A model generated the notes under the pieces. The model was not told the origin of the DNA and made no database searches. It saw only the letters and a program-made list of their open reading frames with translations. The translations under genes and the position numbers were made by a program. Shown here piece by piece: positions 2,401 through 9,816 of a DNA stretch of 32,799 nt. The DNA comes from Alphaproteobacteria bacterium (lineage in GTDB: Bacteria; Pseudomonadota; Alphaproteobacteria; Reyranellales; Reyranellaceae). Each line of letters opens with the position of its first letter. Positions within the stretch are counted from its first letter, which is position 1. Where the stretch lies: assembly GCA_026126245.1 (NCBI GenBank), contig JAHCJT010000012.1, positions 1-32,799 of the forward strand, in the 5' to 3' direction.

Positions 2401-2480
2401 CGGCGCGTCGGGACAGCCGGCCACGGCGATGCGGGTGTAAGCTGTCTGCAGTCAGCCCGCCAGCCCGTGGAAGCCTTCCG

Positions 2481-4136
2481 ATGTCGTCCGACTCGTCGCC
2501 GTTGTTCGCCGAATTGTTGCGCATCCTGCGGCCGTTCTGGCCTATCGCGCTTCTGTCCACCGTGATGGGCGCAGCGAGCGGCCTCGCGACCGCCGGCTTG
2601 CTGGCGGTGATCAACCATGCGCTGCATGCCGACGGCGCCATCGCTCCGGCGGTCCTGCTGACGTTCGCCGGTCTGGGCGCGGTGGCGCTCGTCGGCGAAA
2701 CGGTCTCGAACATCGCCAACAGCCTGGGTGGCCAGCGCATCGTCGCCGCCCTGCGTCGTGAGCTGTGCGGCAAGATCCTGATGGCGCCGATCGCGCGCAT
2801 CGAGGCCTGGCGTGCTCACCGGCTGATCGCCGCCCTCAACCAGGATGTCGATACCATCAGCGCCTTCTCGTTCAATTTCCCGGCCATGGCCATTGCCGCG
2901 GCGGTGACGTTCGGCTGTTTCGTCTATCTCGCAATCCTGTCGCCGACCCTGCTGCTGCTGGTTGCCGTGGCGATCGCCGCCGGTGCTGGCGTGCAGGTGC
3001 TGGCGCGGCGCGCCGGCGTGCGCGGCTTCACTCAGGCGCGCGAGGCGCAGGACGAGCTGCAGCGGCTGTATGGCGCCATCACGCAAGGCGCCAAGGAGCT
3101 GCGGATCGACCGGCGGCGTCGGGCGCGCGTCTGGACGGCGCAGCTGGGCGGCACCATCGACCGCATCCGACGCCTGAACGTGCGCGCGACCATTGCGTTC
3201 CGCGCCGCCGGCACCGCCGGTGTGGCTTTGTTTCTCGTCGTGGTGGCGATGATTCTGGCGCTGCATGACAGGCTGGGGCTCGACAAGACTGTCGTCAGCG
3301 GCTTCGTCCTGACGCTGCTGTTCGTCAAAGGTCCCATCGAGCAGCTGCTGGGGTCCCTGCCGATGATCGGCCAGGCGCATGTCTCGTTTCGCAAGCTGGC
3401 CGAACTTTCCGGTGCCTTCGCCCACAGCGAGCCGCACCTGCTGGTTGGAGTTGACGAGACGGGTCGGTTCGCCGACACCGCAACGGGGATGATCGCACTG
3501 CGCAATGTCTGCTATGCCTATCCGGCGTCGGCCGGCGGCGAGGTGTTTGCGCTGGGGCCGATCGACCTCACCGTACAGCCGGGTGAGATGCTGTTCATCA
3601 CCGGCGAGAATGGCAGCGGCAAGACCACGCTGATCAAACTCCTGCTGGGCCTGTACGAGCCGAGCGGCGGCGAGATCCTGCACGATGGCGTGCCGGTGAC
3701 GGCGGCAACGCGCGACGACTACCGCCAGATGTTCTCGGCAATCTTCTTCGACTATTTCCTGTTCCAGGACATCGTCGCGCCGGGACCGCTGGCTGCCGAC
3801 GCGGCGGCGTCTTACCTGCAGCGCCTCGACCTTGCCGGCAAGGTCACGATCGACGGCGGCGCCTTCTCGACCATTGACCTGTCGGCCGGCCAGCGCAAAC
3901 GCCTAGCCCTGATCCAGGTCTATCTTGCACGACGGCCGGTCATTGTCTTCGACGAATGGGCGGCCGAGCAGGATCCGACCTTCCGGCGGATCTTCTACAG
4001 CGAGCTGTTGCCTGAGCTGAAGCGCGACGGCAAGACGCTGATCGTGGTATCGCACGACGACCGCTATTTCGGCGTCGCCGACCGCCGCATCCGGCTGGAA
4101 GGCGGCCGCCTCGTCGAGGATATCCGCAGTCGATAA
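2481..4136 (+). CDS. Cyclic-peptide-type ABC exporter, putative lasso peptide exporter (D)
   Basis: This 551-residue protein joins an N-terminal six-helix membrane domain (about 1-300) to a C-terminal ATPase domain. Visible ATPase motifs are Walker A GENGSGKTT (375-383), signature LSAGQ (467-471), Walker B VIVFDE (487-492, catalytic Glu492) and the H-loop His525 in VVSHDD. The architecture, length and the LSAGQRKR signature followed by DEWAAEQDP are typical of the SyrD/PvdE cyclic-peptide exporter family. It lies tail to tail with the macrolactam synthetase gene (12 bases between the two stop codons). I therefore infer that it exports the mature lasso peptide and gives self-immunity, the role McjD has in the microcin J25 cluster. 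Being on the opposite strand, it is not in the A-B-C transcript and needs its own promoter or read-through from the SDR gene. Family confidence is high; the cargo is inferred from context. Confidence 0.9.
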   Translation: MSSDSSPLFAELLRILRPFWPIALLSTVMGAASGLATAGLLAVINHALHADGAIAPAVLLTFAGLGAVALVGETVSNIANSLGGQRIVAALRRELCGKILMAPIARIEAWRAHRLIAALNQDVDTISAFSFNFPAMAIAAAVTFGCFVYLAILSPTLLLLVAVAIAAGAGVQVLARRAGVRGFTQAREAQDELQRLYGAITQGAKELRIDRRRRARVWTAQLGGTIDRIRRLNVRATIAFRAAGTAGVALFLVVVAMILALHDRLGLDKTVVSGFVLTLLFVKGPIEQLLGSLPMIGQAHVSFRKLAELSGAFAHSEPHLLVGVDETGRFADTATGMIALRNVCYAYPASAGGEVFALGPIDLTVQPGEMLFITGENGSGKTTLIKLLLGLYEPSGGEILHDGVPVTAATRDDYRQMFSAIFFDYFLFQDIVAPGPLAADAAASYLQRLDLAGKVTIDGGAFSTIDLSAGQRKRLALIQVYLARRPVIVFDEWAAEQDPTFRRIFYSELLPELKRDGKTLIVVSHDDRYFGVADRRIRLEGGRLVEDIRSR

Positions 4137-4148
4137 CGGCCGCGGCGC

Positions 4149-6017
4149 CTAGGCATCCATGGGACAGTCGATGACATGTCCGGGCGCGAGCTGTTGCGCC
4201 CGCCAGGTCCGCCATTGCGCCAGCCATTGCACGATGGCCAGCGCGTTGTTGAGGCGTATGACGCGGTCCATGCCGTCGATGCCCAGCGCTTTGCGGCGCA
4301 TGTCGCGCACCAGCCCGTCCTTGTCGAACAGCCCCAGCGTGTCGACCGGCGAGTCGCGGACCAGCGCCTCCAGCCGCGCCAGGTTGCGCGTCAGGCCGGC
4401 GTAGTAGAGGGCGTTGAAATGGCCCTTGCTGCGCCGTTCCAGGATCGATCGGGGCAGCACGTCGCGCATTGCCCGGGCCAGGACCGGCTTCTGCTGGCCC
4501 GGTTCCGGCCGCAGCCGCAGGCGGGTGCCCAGGCCGAGCGCCAGCACGCGCGGGTCGCGGAACGGGTGCGCGATCAGCACGCCGTGCGGTGCCGCCAGTG
4601 TGGTGCGGGCCCAGTCGCCGGACGTGTAGGCGATGCGCGCCAGGGCTTCCGATAGCACGACGCTGCGCGACGACCGGTAGGTCCGGCGCAGATGACCGAG
4701 CAGGCGCTGCCTCAGGCGGCCGCGGCGGGCGAAATCCGGCAGCACCCAGGACGGCAGCGTCCAGCTGTTCTCGCCGGCCCCCTCGGCATAGCCGCCGCGC
4801 AGCCAGGGCCCCAGTCCCGCCTCCAGACTGACGGGCAGCAGCGGCGTCACGGCGAACGGTCGCAGAATGCGCCAGATGCTGCAGCGCTGCGCGGCCGCCC
4901 AACGGGACGCTTCCCGCCATGCGGCGAGGACGCGTCCGTTCCGGCAAAGGTCGGCGATGTAGAACGGTGCCGCCGCCAGCATTTCGTCGGCGCCAAAGCC
5001 GGTCAGCATGGTGTCGACACCGTGATCGGCCGCGGCGGCCGTCAGCGCGATGTCGAGGCCGGCGCGGAACAGGCCGCAATATGGCTCGTCGTGCAGCGGC
5101 GTGGCGCCGAACAGGTCGAAATCGAGAATGTCGTCGGCGGCAATGCGATGCGGCAGCAGGCCAGGCCGGTCGAGTACGGACTCGAGGTAGGGCGTTTCGT
5201 GCCCGAGTTCGCCCAGCTTTTCGTAGGTCAGGGACAGCGCATGCAACGGCCGTCCGGAACGTCCCAGGGTGTCCAGGGCCAGCAGGGCGACGGCCGTCGA
5301 GTCCATGCCGCCCGACATCTGGGCCGCGACAGTGCCCTGCAGGCGCTCGTCCACAGCCCGGCGGAGCGCGGCGCCATACCGTTCGGCGACCACCTCCAGC
5401 CGATCGCTGCCGGGATCGATGATCTTGTCCGGCCAACTCCAGAACGGACGGACCTCAGCGCTGGGCCGTGCCAGGTCGAGCCTCAGCGTCGAGCCGGGAA
5501 CGAGCCGCTGGACGCCGTTGAGTGCCGTGCCCTGATAATAGTCGATCTCGGCGAATGGCAAGGTCAGCAGTTCGCCGAGGAAGCCGATGTCGGGCGTGGT
5601 GTCGTCCAGACAATCGAGCAGCGGGTGCAGGCTGCTGGCGATCGCGACGGCTTGAGGCGAGGCCAGCCAGTACACCGGATAGCCACCCATGGGATCGCGC
5701 AAGGCGATCGCGTGCCGCTGACCGGGATCGAGAACCACGACAGCGAAGTCGCCCTCCAGCCGCGCCAGCCCGTCGCGGCCATGACGGCGATAGCACGTCA
5801 GCGCCAGGGCGGCGTCGTCGCGCGCTTCGGGCGCATCGGTGGAAAGGTTGAGCGACTGAATCAGGTCCGGCCGGTAGTAGAGCCGGCCCATGATGACCGC
5901 GATCTGGCCGCCATCCTCGTGCCAGCGGATCAACGGCAATCGCCCGGGTGATGGCGTGCCGTACAACTGCAGCCGGACGTGCCCGCGTCGGGCGAGCAGG
6001 GCGAACCCCGGCGGCAT
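4149..6017 (-). CDS. Asparagine-synthetase-like lasso macrolactam synthetase (C)
   Basis: Lasso C proteins adenylate the side-chain carboxylate of a core Asp/Glu and join it to the core N-terminus, closing the ring. This protein of about 622 residues has an N-terminal glutaminase-like domain (roughly 1-200) without the Cys2 nucleophile that true asparagine synthetases use, so it should not use glutamine as an ammonia donor. It then has the ATP-pyrophosphatase domain with SGGMDSTA (about 236-243), a DEPY element and LTGFGADEMLAA, the family's ATP- and substrate-contacting motifs. It follows the B gene after 45 bases on the same strand and faces the exporter gene. Two start codons are adjacent, GTG at 6020 and ATG at 6017; I chose ATG, and neither has a strong ribosome binding site. 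An ordinary asparagine synthase is less likely given the missing Cys and the neighbours. Confidence 0.93.
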   Translation of the reverse strand: MPPGFALLARRGHVRLQLYGTPSPGRLPLIRWHEDGGQIAVIMGRLYYRPDLIQSLNLSTDAPEARDDAALALTCYRRHGRDGLARLEGDFAVVVLDPGQRHAIALRDPMGGYPVYWLASPQAVAIASSLHPLLDCLDDTTPDIGFLGELLTLPFAEIDYYQGTALNGVQRLVPGSTLRLDLARPSAEVRPFWSWPDKIIDPGSDRLEVVAERYGAALRRAVDERLQGTVAAQMSGGMDSTAVALLALDTLGRSGRPLHALSLTYEKLGELGHETPYLESVLDRPGLLPHRIAADDILDFDLFGATPLHDEPYCGLFRAGLDIALTAAAADHGVDTMLTGFGADEMLAAAPFYIADLCRNGRVLAAWREASRWAAAQRCSIWRILRPFAVTPLLPVSLEAGLGPWLRGGYAEGAGENSWTLPSWVLPDFARRGRLRQRLLGHLRRTYRSSRSVVLSEALARIAYTSGDWARTTLAAPHGVLIAHPFRDPRVLALGLGTRLRLRPEPGQQKPVLARAMRDVLPRSILERRSKGHFNALYYAGLTRNLARLEALVRDSPVDTLGLFDKDGLVRDMRRKALGIDGMDRVIRLNNALAIVQWLAQWRTWRAQQLAPGHVIDCPMDA

Positions 6018-6062
6018 CACCGCCCGGCGCGCGCTGCCGGCGACGGCAGGCGGCGCTTGCCG

Positions 6063-6839
6063 TCAGGCATAGCGAAAGACGGGCGTGTAGCGTGCGCAGC
6101 TCTGGCGATCGTCGCTGACAATCACGCCATCAATCTCGCACCAGCTGTGTCCGGCCAGCGGGTAGGGGCGTATGCCCACCACCAGCGATGCCGGCAGGCC
6201 GGCGCGCTTAGCCATGGCCCAGCAGCAAAGCGCCCGTTCCTTGCAATCCATGCCCAGAACATGGCGCGCCGCGGCGGCGCGAACGATCGCGTCGATCGCG
6301 CCGGCCTGGGTGCCGGGCGTCACTGGCGCCGGCTCACGGGTGGGCCCCTCGATGCGCCGCTTCCAGGCTGAGACCGTCGCCGTCCAGCCGAACAGGCGCA
6401 GCGACAGCCGCGCCAGCGTCAGGCCCCATGCCGCGCGTGCCTGCGTCGAGCGCCGGGCGGCGAAGGCCAGCGCCAGCAGGGTCGCGACAACCCGCGCGCC
6501 CCACGGGATCTGCTGCGGTCGAGAGGGCTGTCCCGGCTGCCGCAGCAGGTCGCGATCCTCAAGGTCCTTGAGGAAGCGGCGCATATCGCCCTGCACCTGC
6601 GCGATCGGCGCGCCATAGTCAGCCGCGACCAGAGACGCGGCCGTCGTCAAATCGGTCTCGAGCACGCGACGCAGCATCATGGCGCCGACCGGCGGCAGGG
6701 CATAGAAGCTGCGCCGCATGTCGAGCACGCAGGCGTTGCCATCCTGCATGATGACAACCGCCGTGTCCGGCGCCAGCGCACGCGCTCCACCGGAATGACC
6801 CGGTGACTCTCGGCCACCTATGACGAGGGGATCCGCCAC
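6063..6839 (-). CDS. Lasso peptide leader peptidase with fused RRE (B1-B2 fusion)
   Basis: This 258-residue protein binds the precursor leader and cleaves it. Residues about 20-100 look like a PqqD-type RiPP recognition element: a short beta region (VVIMQDGNACVLDM), RRSFYALPPVGAMML and a helical part ending FLKDLEDRDLL. Residues about 110-258 are the transglutaminase-like B2 peptidase, with catalytic Cys199 in MDCKERAL, His231 in GHSWCEIDG and an Asp in VSDD (243-244). Fusion of the two parts is the McjB arrangement common in proteobacteria. The only plausible start is GTG at 6839; upstream in the same frame I see no ATG before the precursor stop, and the ribosome binding site is weak. It lies 29 bases behind the precursor and 45 bases before the C gene, so A-B-C is one operon. 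Confidence 0.93.
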   Translation of the reverse strand: MADPLVIGGRESPGHSGGARALAPDTAVVIMQDGNACVLDMRRSFYALPPVGAMMLRRVLETDLTTAASLVAADYGAPIAQVQGDMRRFLKDLEDRDLLRQPGQPSRPQQIPWGARVVATLLALAFAARRSTQARAAWGLTLARLSLRLFGWTATVSAWKRRIEGPTREPAPVTPGTQAGAIDAIVRAAAARHVLGMDCKERALCCWAMAKRAGLPASLVVGIRPYPLAGHSWCEIDGVIVSDDRQSCARYTPVFRYA

Positions 6840-6868
6840 TGCACCGTCGACCGCTGCGGATCGACGAC

Positions 6869-7078
6869 TTACTCGCCGGGCAGGTAATAGTAGTAGTAGT
6901 TGCGGTCGCTGCCCGACATGCCGCCACCACCTTGCACGAGATCGGCCGTGCGGCCGACCTCCAGCACGCGTGGCGCCTCATAGGCGGGTGCGGCATGCGG
7001 GGCCGCGACGCCGGACGTCGCGGCCGTTGTCGGGCGCTGGTCGCCGAGCACCAGAGCGCCTGGCTTGGTCATCATCAT
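6869..7078 (-). CDS. Lasso peptide precursor (A), predicted Gly1-Asp9 ring and penta-Tyr tail
   Basis: This is a 69-residue precursor peptide. The leader (1-49) begins with three Met codons and an Ala/Pro/Thr-rich stretch. It then carries Y33, P36, V38, G42, V48 and G50, exactly the spacing of the lasso leader motif YxxPxLxxxGxxxxxTxG that the RRE recognises, except that the near-invariant Thr at position -2 is Val48. Cleavage before G50 gives a 20-residue core. The ring would be GGGGMSGSD, closed between Gly1 and Asp9, and the tail RNYYYYYLPGE. Asp9 is the only acidic residue at ring position 7, 8 or 9. The bulky tyrosines could act as the plugs that keep the tail threaded. A GGGGAG ribosome binding site lies 6 bases before the first ATG (7078). 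B and C follow on the same strand. Identification is strong; the exact cleavage point among four glycines is inferred. Confidence 0.93.
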   Translation of the reverse strand: MMMTKPGALVLGDQRPTTAATSGVAAPHAAPAYEAPRVLEVGRTADLVQGGGGMSGSDRNYYYYYLPGE

Positions 7079-7185
7079 GTCGTTCTCCCCGGTGGCGTGT
7101 CGCCGACGTCACGGCGGCAGGACACGCCGCCTCGCGCCGATGGCGGCCTAATGGCGAGAATCTAGGCCCGAGCCTCCAGGCCTCC

Positions 7186-7215
7186 AATGAAAAAATATTG
7201 CCTCTGTATGCCAAA
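7186..7215 (-). promoter_or_regulatory. AT-rich candidate promoter of the lasso A-B-C operon
   Basis: This is the only AT-rich stretch in the gap between the lipoprotein gene and the precursor. Read on the minus strand it is TTTGGCATACAGAGGCAATA followed by a run of six T. It lies about 110 bases before the precursor start. It contains a TTGGCA -35-like box, but no -10 box at ideal spacing. A sigma-54 reading (GG then GC) is one base short of the required spacing. The placement supports a promoter; the sigma class is undecided. Confidence 0.3.
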
Positions 7216-7298
7216 CGGCGGCAATGCCGTCGTCGCCCGGCGCGCCGTCGGGCGGCCGCATGGACCGCCCGATCGCCACCGTCGGAACAGCGTGGATA

Positions 7299-7526
7299 TT
7301 AGTAGTAGCGGTCGCGATAGCGCGGCGTGGTGGCGGCGCCGACGCCGGCACCGACGGCGCCGCCGACCAGAGCGCCCGGCAGCACGCCCATGCCCGAGGC
7401 GCCGCCGATCAGGGCGCCCGAGCCGGCGCCAATGGCGCCGCCGGTCACCGCGCGCTGGCCCCAGGTGTCGCCGCAGGCGCTGGCAAGCACCGCGGCAAGC
7501 GACAAGGCGATCAGGTTCTTGGTCAT
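7299..7526 (-). CDS. Glycine-zipper lipoprotein or small exported protein
   Basis: This is a 75-residue small envelope protein. From the ATG at 7526, preceded by a strong GAGGAGG ribosome binding site, it starts MTKNLIALSLAAVLASACGD, a signal peptide ending in a possible lipobox. The -3 position is Ala where Leu is usual, so lipidation is likely but not certain. The rest (about 25-65) is a run of GxxxG-type glycine zippers (AVTGGAIGAGSGALIGG and on), which form packed membrane helices in small outer-membrane or periplasmic proteins of proteobacteria. The tail is RYRDRYY. A longer in-frame start at 7583 is rejected because the ribosome binding site sits at 7526. It precedes the lasso operon on the same strand with 220 bases between. 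I see no reason to count it as part of that system. Confidence 0.8.
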   Translation of the reverse strand: MTKNLIALSLAAVLASACGDTWGQRAVTGGAIGAGSGALIGGASGMGVLPGALVGGAVGAGVGAATTPRYRDRYY

Positions 7527-7665
7527 TGGCTCCTCCTCAACGCACCGGCGCATCGCCGGCACCCCGGTTACGTTGGGAGCCAATATCGACCGTGTCGGGG
7601 AATCATCATGGCCAAAGATGGATTCGCTTGCCGCAATCTGGCCAGATTGCCGGGGCGCGGCCTCG

Positions 7666-8682
7666 TCACTTGAGATTGCGCTCGAAGAAGTCGCGCATCA
7701 GATCGTCGATTTTGGCGTGAATGGCGCGCCGGTCGATGCCCGGCTTGTCGCTGCAGATCTCGTCGTGACGGCCGGGCGGGCAGGGGGCGAGGAAGATCAG
7801 GTGCTCGCCGGGCACGACGTGGTACTCCGGCTTGCGCCCCAGATTGTCGACCAGCCACTGCTCGCTGTAGGGATGGCGGATCGCGTTGTCCTGCGCCGCG
7901 CGAAAGATCAGCATCGGCTTGGTGATCGCCTGCAGGGTCGGGCGCGGAAACATGAAACCGTAGCCCGGTGCCATGATGACCGCCGCCTTGACGCGCGGAT
8001 CGGGTGTCTGACGCCAGTCGGGCCGCAGGATGCGGACTTTGCCCTCCAGGCCGCCGCTGCAGGCGCCGCCGTCATCGGGGACCTTCTTGCAGTAGTCCGT
8101 CAGCAGGGAAAAGTCCGGCACGCCGCCCAGCACGGTCAGCGCCGTGAAGCCGCCGGCGGAGAAGCCGACCATGCCGATCTTGTCCGGATCGACAAGCGGT
8201 CCGATGACCGGATCGCGCAGCACGCCGTCGATGGTGCGGGCGATGTGTCGCGAGCGGCCGACCAGCTGCATGTCAGTGTAGGTGCCGGAGCTGTCGGAAT
8301 TGTTGTCGTGGGGATGCTCGGGCGTGGCGACGATGTAACCCTGATGCACCAGGTACTCGGCGAAATGGTGCAGGCCGAAGACGTAGCCGAAGCTGCCATG
8401 CGACAGCACGATCAGCGGCCGGCGGCCGGGCAGGGGGGCGGCATTGCTGCGCGTGCTGACCAGGTAGGCATTGGCCATCCAGGGATGCGGCGTCACGCGC
8501 GTCGGATACCACAGCCAGGTGCGGATTCCGGCCGGTTCGAGATTGTCCGGCAGCACGACCTCGCGCAGACCGACGTTGGGCTGATCGGGGCGGGTCTTGA
8601 ATTGTGCCTGCGAGACGGAGGGCAGCACCGCGACCAGCAGCAAGGTCGCAGCGGACAGACATAGTGCGATACGCTTGAGCAT
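7666..8682 (-). CDS. Secreted alpha/beta hydrolase (PAF-acetylhydrolase/dienelactone-hydrolase-like)
   Basis: This is a 338-residue exported serine hydrolase. It has a Sec signal peptide (1-26, cleavage near SQA-QF) and an oxyanion-hole HGS (about 95-97). The nucleophile is Ser175 in GFSAGG, the acid probably Asp265 (AAQDNAIRHP) and the base His294 in PGEHLIF. Two cysteines after the His (CPPGRHDEIC) could form a periplasmic disulfide. The fold and length fit the platelet-activating-factor acetylhydrolase/dienelactone hydrolase group, which cleaves esters or small lactones. The substrate is unknown. It is a paralogue of the next gene upstream (8827-9816): the motifs, the cysteine pair and the final GIDRRAIHAKIDDL-like helix all correspond. 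It has no beta-propeller domain, so it is not the known prolyl-oligopeptidase-type lasso isopeptidase, although it lies close to the lasso genes. Confidence 0.88.
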   Translation of the reverse strand: MLKRIALCLSAATLLLVAVLPSVSQAQFKTRPDQPNVGLREVVLPDNLEPAGIRTWLWYPTRVTPHPWMANAYLVSTRSNAAPLPGRRPLIVLSHGSFGYVFGLHHFAEYLVHQGYIVATPEHPHDNNSDSSGTYTDMQLVGRSRHIARTIDGVLRDPVIGPLVDPDKIGMVGFSAGGFTALTVLGGVPDFSLLTDYCKKVPDDGGACSGGLEGKVRILRPDWRQTPDPRVKAAVIMAPGYGFMFPRPTLQAITKPMLIFRAAQDNAIRHPYSEQWLVDNLGRKPEYHVVPGEHLIFLAPCPPGRHDEICSDKPGIDRRAIHAKIDDLMRDFFERNLK

Positions 8683-8826: not shown

Positions 8827-9816
8827 TCAATCCCGGCCCAGGACGCGGTCGAAAAAATCCCGAATCTCCGCGTTGAGCCGGCGATGGATCGCGGCGCGAT
8901 CGACGCCCGCGGCATCGCGGCACAGCAGCGCCGAGCCTGGCCGGCGACAGGGCGATACGAACACAAAATGCCCCCCGGGGACCACCACATATTCGGGGGC
9001 CCTCGGCAGGGCACGGCGCAAGGTGTCCTCGTTGTAGGGATGACGCACGACCTGGTCGGACTCGGCGCGGTAGAGGCGGATCGCGGCGGTTACGTCCGCC
9101 AGACCCTTGCGGTCGAAGAAGATGCTGTAGGCCGGCGCCAGCAGCACGGCGGCGCGGACCCGCGCATCGTGCGTCACCGACCACTCGGGGTGCAGTCGCT
9201 GGATGCCGCCGCGGCGCATCCAGCCGCAGAAAAGGCTGTCGCGCTGCGCCTGCGCGCAATGCGCCGGTCCGAGCGCAAAGTCCGGCCGGCCGCCGATCAC
9301 CACCAGAGCGGCGTAGCCGCCGGCCGAATAGCCGATGATGCCGATGCGTTGCGCATCGATCAGCAGGCCAAGCGTCGGGTCGGCCAGCAGCGCATCGATG
9401 CTGCGCGCGATGTGGCGCGGGCGACCCAGCAGCTGCAGGTCGGTGCCGGGCCCGGAATGATCGGTGGCGTTGTCATGGGTATGCACAGGTGCGGCGACGA
9501 TCGAGCCGCGCGATGCCAGGTACTCGATGAGATCGCGCTGGTTCAGCGGCGTGCCGCCCGATCCGTGCGACAGCATGATCAACCTGTGCCGTCCGGGCAG
9601 GGGCGGCACCGGCAGGGCCGCCGGCCCGCCGTCGTCGGTGACCCCGCTGGTGGCGGCGGGATACCAGACCGTCAGCGCAATCGGCGGTTCGCCGGCGAGG
9701 TCGGCGACCATCAGGGTCCGGGCGCCGACCGGCGACTGCCCGACGGCGGGCGCGGCGGGCGCCAGCAGCGCCGCGACGAGCAGGAAGCCGGCCAGCCGCG
9801 ATCGGCGGGCGGCCAC
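8827..9816 (-). CDS. Secreted alpha/beta hydrolase, paralogue of the gene at 7666-8682
   Basis: This is a 329-residue exported serine hydrolase. A signal peptide spans about 1-27 (LLVAALLAPAAPAVGQ), with LSHGSGG as oxyanion region, the nucleophile Ser164 in GYSAGG, Asp254 (AESDQVVRHPY) and His283 in PGGHFVF. It shares with its neighbour the HTHDN/HPHDN motif, the RHPY motif after the catalytic Asp and the cysteine pair near the end (CRRPGSALLC), so the two arose by duplication and diverged strongly. The start is GTG at 9816, three bases after the stop of the D-threonine-aldolase-like gene, so the two are very likely translationally coupled in one operon. The reaction is probably ester or amide hydrolysis in the periplasm. 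The substrate cannot be read from the sequence. Confidence 0.87.
   Translation of the reverse strand: MAARRSRLAGFLLVAALLAPAAPAVGQSPVGARTLMVADLAGEPPIALTVWYPAATSGVTDDGGPAALPVPPLPGRHRLIMLSHGSGGTPLNQRDLIEYLASRGSIVAAPVHTHDNATDHSGPGTDLQLLGRPRHIARSIDALLADPTLGLLIDAQRIGIIGYSAGGYAALVVIGGRPDFALGPAHCAQAQRDSLFCGWMRRGGIQRLHPEWSVTHDARVRAAVLLAPAYSIFFDRKGLADVTAAIRLYRAESDQVVRHPYNEDTLRRALPRAPEYVVVPGGHFVFVSPCRRPGSALLCRDAAGVDRAAIHRRLNAEIRDFFDRVLGRD

Follow-up and report, generated by a model that had tools for sequence, protein, structure and literature searches.

The leaders of lasso-peptide precursors usually, though not universally, carry Thr at position -2 as their recognition residue. In the microcin-J25 type, a precursor is encoded together with a fused RRE-peptidase, an asparagine-synthetase-like cyclase and an ABC exporter. 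The bsf system of Bradymonas sediminis departs from the usual leader: Ile(-2) was validated for BsfA in 2023, and the aliphatic residue at -2 was shown to matter for cutting (PMC10368454). Its leader holds the YxxPxL motif, its B function is split between B1 and B2, and a kinase phosphorylates the core; rare leaders with Ile or Val(-2) were also reported in Bradymonadales, Acidobacteriaceae and Sphingomonadales (PMC10368454).

We analysed a window of 32,799 nucleotides (the whole of contig stretch JAHCJT010000012.1, positions 1-32,799) from an alphaproteobacterium of the Reyranellaceae. The cluster found in it has the four components of the microcin-J25 type, from which it differs by Val(-2) in place of Thr(-2), by an exporter of the TIGR01194 family and by an unrelated core. 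With bsf it shares the aliphatic -2 residue and the YxxPxL leader motif, but it has a fused B, and the 4.85-kb cassette that holds it contains no kinase gene, so that it does not belong to the bsf type. Departures from Thr(-2) such as this Val are thus already on record, and here the departure is combined with a fused B and the absence of a bsf-type kinase. The cluster belongs to a known RiPP class, within a small divergent subclade.

A lasso-peptide gene set with a fused leader peptidase

Four lasso-peptide genes were found where the initial annotation had placed them, with domain matches and conserved motifs that bear out its reading of the locus as an A-B-C-D set. The precursor gene A (6869-7078), gene B (6063-6839) and gene C (4149-6020) lie on the minus strand and are transcribed in that order. 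The gaps between A and B (29 bp) and between B and C (42 bp) suggest that the three probably form one operon. All four frames, including that of the exporter gene D, are open and have the high GC3 of real genes. We consider it very probable that A-D make up a complete, intact-looking lasso-peptide (RiPP) cluster; it was the only one of this type in the source genome, the assembly of which is 88% complete in 496 contigs.

B had been described as a fused RRE/transglutaminase-like peptidase, and its domains agree with this: PF05402 (PqqD, 29.4 bits, cut-off 23.4), PF13471 (Transglut_core3, 61.7 bits, cut-off 26) and the NCBIfam model lasso_biosyn_B2 (NF033537, 59.1 bits, cut-off 33) all scored above their cut-offs. 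The PqqD-like RRE covers residues about 22-99. In the peptidase half, the positions of Cys199, His231 and Asp243 were invariant in six aligned proteins, and these residues would constitute the catalytic triad. In an AlphaFold model of B (pLDDT 81), the RRE half matched the leader-bound RREs of TbiB1 and TfuB1 (5v1u, 6jx3) with TM-scores of 0.82-0.86 by target length, at weak Foldseek E-values (0.009-0.03); the sequence of the N-terminal half resembles the same two RREs. Foldseek gave no match with E below 0.001 for whole B and weak fold matches to cysteine proteases for its peptidase part. Judged from the model, the structural match appears convincing for the RRE half only.

C is a predicted ATP-dependent macrolactam synthetase, asparagine-synthetase-like as first annotated (Asn_synthase, PF00733, 92.5 bits, cut-off 21; plus GATase_7). 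The SGGMDS ATP motif is conserved, and a distant match to beta-lactam synthetase (1jgt) was found. The N-terminal glutaminase-like domain begins M-P-P-G-F and lacks the Cys2 nucleophile, as is expected of lasso cyclases. Since relatives begin M-x-x-G-F, the ATG at 6017 is likely the true start. C stayed under the cut-offs of the NCBIfam macrolactam-cyclase models NF033561 (198 of 300) and NF033535 (149 of 525), and A matched lasso_leader_L3 weakly (16.1 bits, cut-off 19), so that neither A nor C is identified outright by a curated model.

The exporter gene D (2481-4136) is transcribed from the plus strand towards C, in the convergent orientation first proposed. Its product matched the cyclic-peptide-export family TIGR01194 with 588 bits, twice the cut-off of 286. 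No McjD entry stood among its PDB matches at E <= 1e-20.

Genomic context

The neighbouring genes encode a short-chain dehydrogenase (1633-2400) on one side of the cluster and a glycine-zipper lipoprotein (7299-7583) on the other. Three congeners lack the A-D block and have only a spacer of ~75 bp between the two flanks, which end at 2400 and resume at about 7302. As the flanks are contiguous in these three, the block is a cassette of the window's species, holding A-D only and spanning roughly 4.85 kb (2401-7244, edges approximate). Its right edge is marked by a GC-rich inverted repeat (7245-7276), which was seen by eye in the alignments and was not detected by the terminator scan. Similar inverted repeats stand in the congeners' spacers, and the repeat is probably the native end of the lipoprotein gene. 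No direct repeats of at least 8 bp were found at the cassette borders, and no mobile genes were seen at its edges. Because the nearest relatives of the cluster lie outside its own family (see below), three separate losses would be a less likely explanation than acquisition by transfer.

Two adjacent alpha/beta-hydrolase genes (7666-8682 and 8827-9816) stand outside the cassette and are present in the congeners, whose DNA cross-matches between them, as if they were paralogues. An isopeptidase role was weighed for the first and discarded, its lasso_peptidase match having E 0.022 and 13.5 bits where the cut-off is 400.

A cluster that is accessory in its genus and missing from three congeners might be silent or decaying in this strain, and a consensus scan at the cluster recognised neither promoters nor terminators. 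Against this stand the four open frames, the high GC3 and the intact catalytic motifs, and we regard silence or decay as unlikely.

Relatives of the cluster

Among the 385 genomes of a class sample, a profile search with B detected one close cluster besides that of the window, in G222; among the 398 genomes of a phylum sample it detected the window's own cluster alone. A second close cluster was found in G823, within the family of G222. In both alphaproteobacteria, B, C and the precursors match those of the window in type (three precursors in G222, at least two in G823), and the A-B-C order is kept. Identity to the window is 53-54% for C and 37-39% for B, and a relative of D from the same exporter family adjoins the G222 cluster (484 bits). 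The leaders of both end in Val or Ile(-2) and mostly Gln(-1). Like the window, these loci (L041, L052) have equal register and ring size; unlike it, they encode two to three precursors with C11 and C18 in the tail and have GYF- and CHAT-domain neighbour genes. Cores in G222 (L041, 6704-8015) and G823 (L052, 10423-12092) read GVGEYNSYDQCGHASWGC and GYSWMSGYDMCGHGIYECE, and their two tail cysteines could form a disulfide.

A B fused as in the window, together with a related C, was also found in Nostoc, Richelia and Amazonocrinis (L036-L038). A contig scan returned only two cyanobacterial loci, as its two-sequence query gave narrow patterns. The window's C is ~35% identical to cyanobacterial C and 20-27% identical to that of the other lasso clusters compared. 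In a quick tree, the window, G222, G823 and the three cyanobacteria grouped together with support of 0.999. The cyanobacterial clusters share with the window the fused RRE-B and tails with Tyr, but have another transporter and either a leader one residue shorter or a ring of 8, their register being ambiguous. Their cores read VQ/AYYRGSMFD, VQ/AFYRGTLVD and VQ/SSVQGSYIE (/ marks the cut), with Asp or Glu at position 9 and a small residue 1; an 8-residue ring with longer leader spacing may be the alternative reading. The Nostoc cluster sits on a conjugative plasmid. In Nostoc and Richelia (L036, L037) a pentapeptide-repeat protein gene lies beside the biosynthetic genes; an immunity role for it is only a guess.

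The compared clusters of the window's own family have separate B proteins and a Thr(-2) leader wherever a precursor was recognised. Judged by sequence, the nearest relatives of the window cluster thus stand outside its own family. In other alphaproteobacterial precursors (L042, 2859-3098; L045, 6085-6240; L047, 2759-2974; L048; L049) the first core residue seems unusual: Asn1 (NVGWSGASD), Thr1 (TQWTSRGRRD) and Val1 (VGLTNPGSD) were seen, with Asp9 given for each. Asn1 was first demonstrated in metanodin (PMC12670498).

The precursor and its predicted product

In gene A, a good ribosome-binding site of the GGGGAGA type precedes ATGATGATG, and three ATGs follow the site. It encodes 69 residues, with a leader ending in YEAPRVLEVGRTADLVQ and the predicted core GGGGMSGSDRNYYYYYLPGE. 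The leader motif is YEAPRVLEVG, in which V occupies the L position of YxxPxLxxxG. A was the one small ORF of the window with YxxPx[LIVM]xxxG. The motif is not expected by chance: residue shuffles gave 0.09 expected occurrences per window, and the full leader-plus-core grammar was found in 0 of 300 shuffles. A thus joins a YxxPxLxxxG-type leader to a core with Asp at position 9, lasso precursors requiring Asp or Glu at 7-9.

Seven residues separate the leader Gly from the cut, RTADLVQ in the window and RAVKLIQ, SAVQLVQ and SAVKLVR among G222 and G823. This spacing sets Val where Thr(-2) stands in L042, a family member's own lasso precursor, so that A carries Val(-2) and not the canonical Thr(-2). 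Alignment of the G222 and G823 precursors placed Gly1 and Asp9 at equal distance from the leader motif in all five; the Gly follows [V/I]Q or VR, and Asp9 is the sole carboxylate at ring distance 7-9. This conserved spacing supports the proposed closure between Gly1 and Asp9, and the predicted product is a 9-residue macrolactam ring with the 11-residue tail RNYYYYYLPGE. Its computed mass (core minus one water) is 2186.90 Da monoisotopic, with [M+2H]2+ at 1094.46. The five tail tyrosines are encoded by TAC TAC TAC TAT TAC, a repeat that may change length easily.

In the pathway that we propose, the RRE half of B would bind the leader (YEAPRVLEVG...) and its peptidase half would cut after Val(-2)-Gln(-1). 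C would then adenylate the Asp9 side chain and join Asp9 to the Gly1 amine, closing the ring around a presumably threaded tail, and D would export the product. Threading is not visible from sequence alone and the glycine-rich ring is flexible, which leaves room for a branched-cyclic macrolactam that is no true lasso. This seems rather improbable, since a stretch of five tyrosines is typical of the bulky plugs by which a threaded tail is held in place, and since the substrate of lasso C enzymes is normally a core that has already folded. Least probable of all is a cut one residue later (VQG/GGGMSGSD...), giving an 8-residue ring of 2129.88 Da: owing to the run of four glycines, this precursor by itself does not fix the cut, and 8-residue lasso rings are known, but such a cut would place Val or Tyr at position 1 in G222 and G823 and break the 7-residue spacing of other lasso leaders.

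Novelty and significance

The core had been put forward as one without a described counterpart, and this held within the searches made: exact core strings, with the Gly4 ring and the Tyr5 tail, were not found in the literature searched, and precursor A had no match in a plasmid collection. Genome mining often turns up lasso cores not seen before. What makes the locus of interest is the combination of Val(-2) and a fused B, the rarity of its subclade and its behaviour as a cassette; it does not represent a new kind of system. We give about even odds to a separate fused-B lasso subfamily that spans two phyla (the window, G222 and G823, and the three cyanobacteria), has a peptidase reading Val or Ile(-2) instead of Thr(-2) without a bsf kinase, and in this genus takes the form of a self-contained mobile cassette. 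The product would most likely act as a weapon or signal against neighbours. The cluster is short and complete and its product has a predicted mass, making it directly expressible; together with G222 and G823, it would allow testing of how a leader peptidase selects the cleavage position when the customary threonine is missing.
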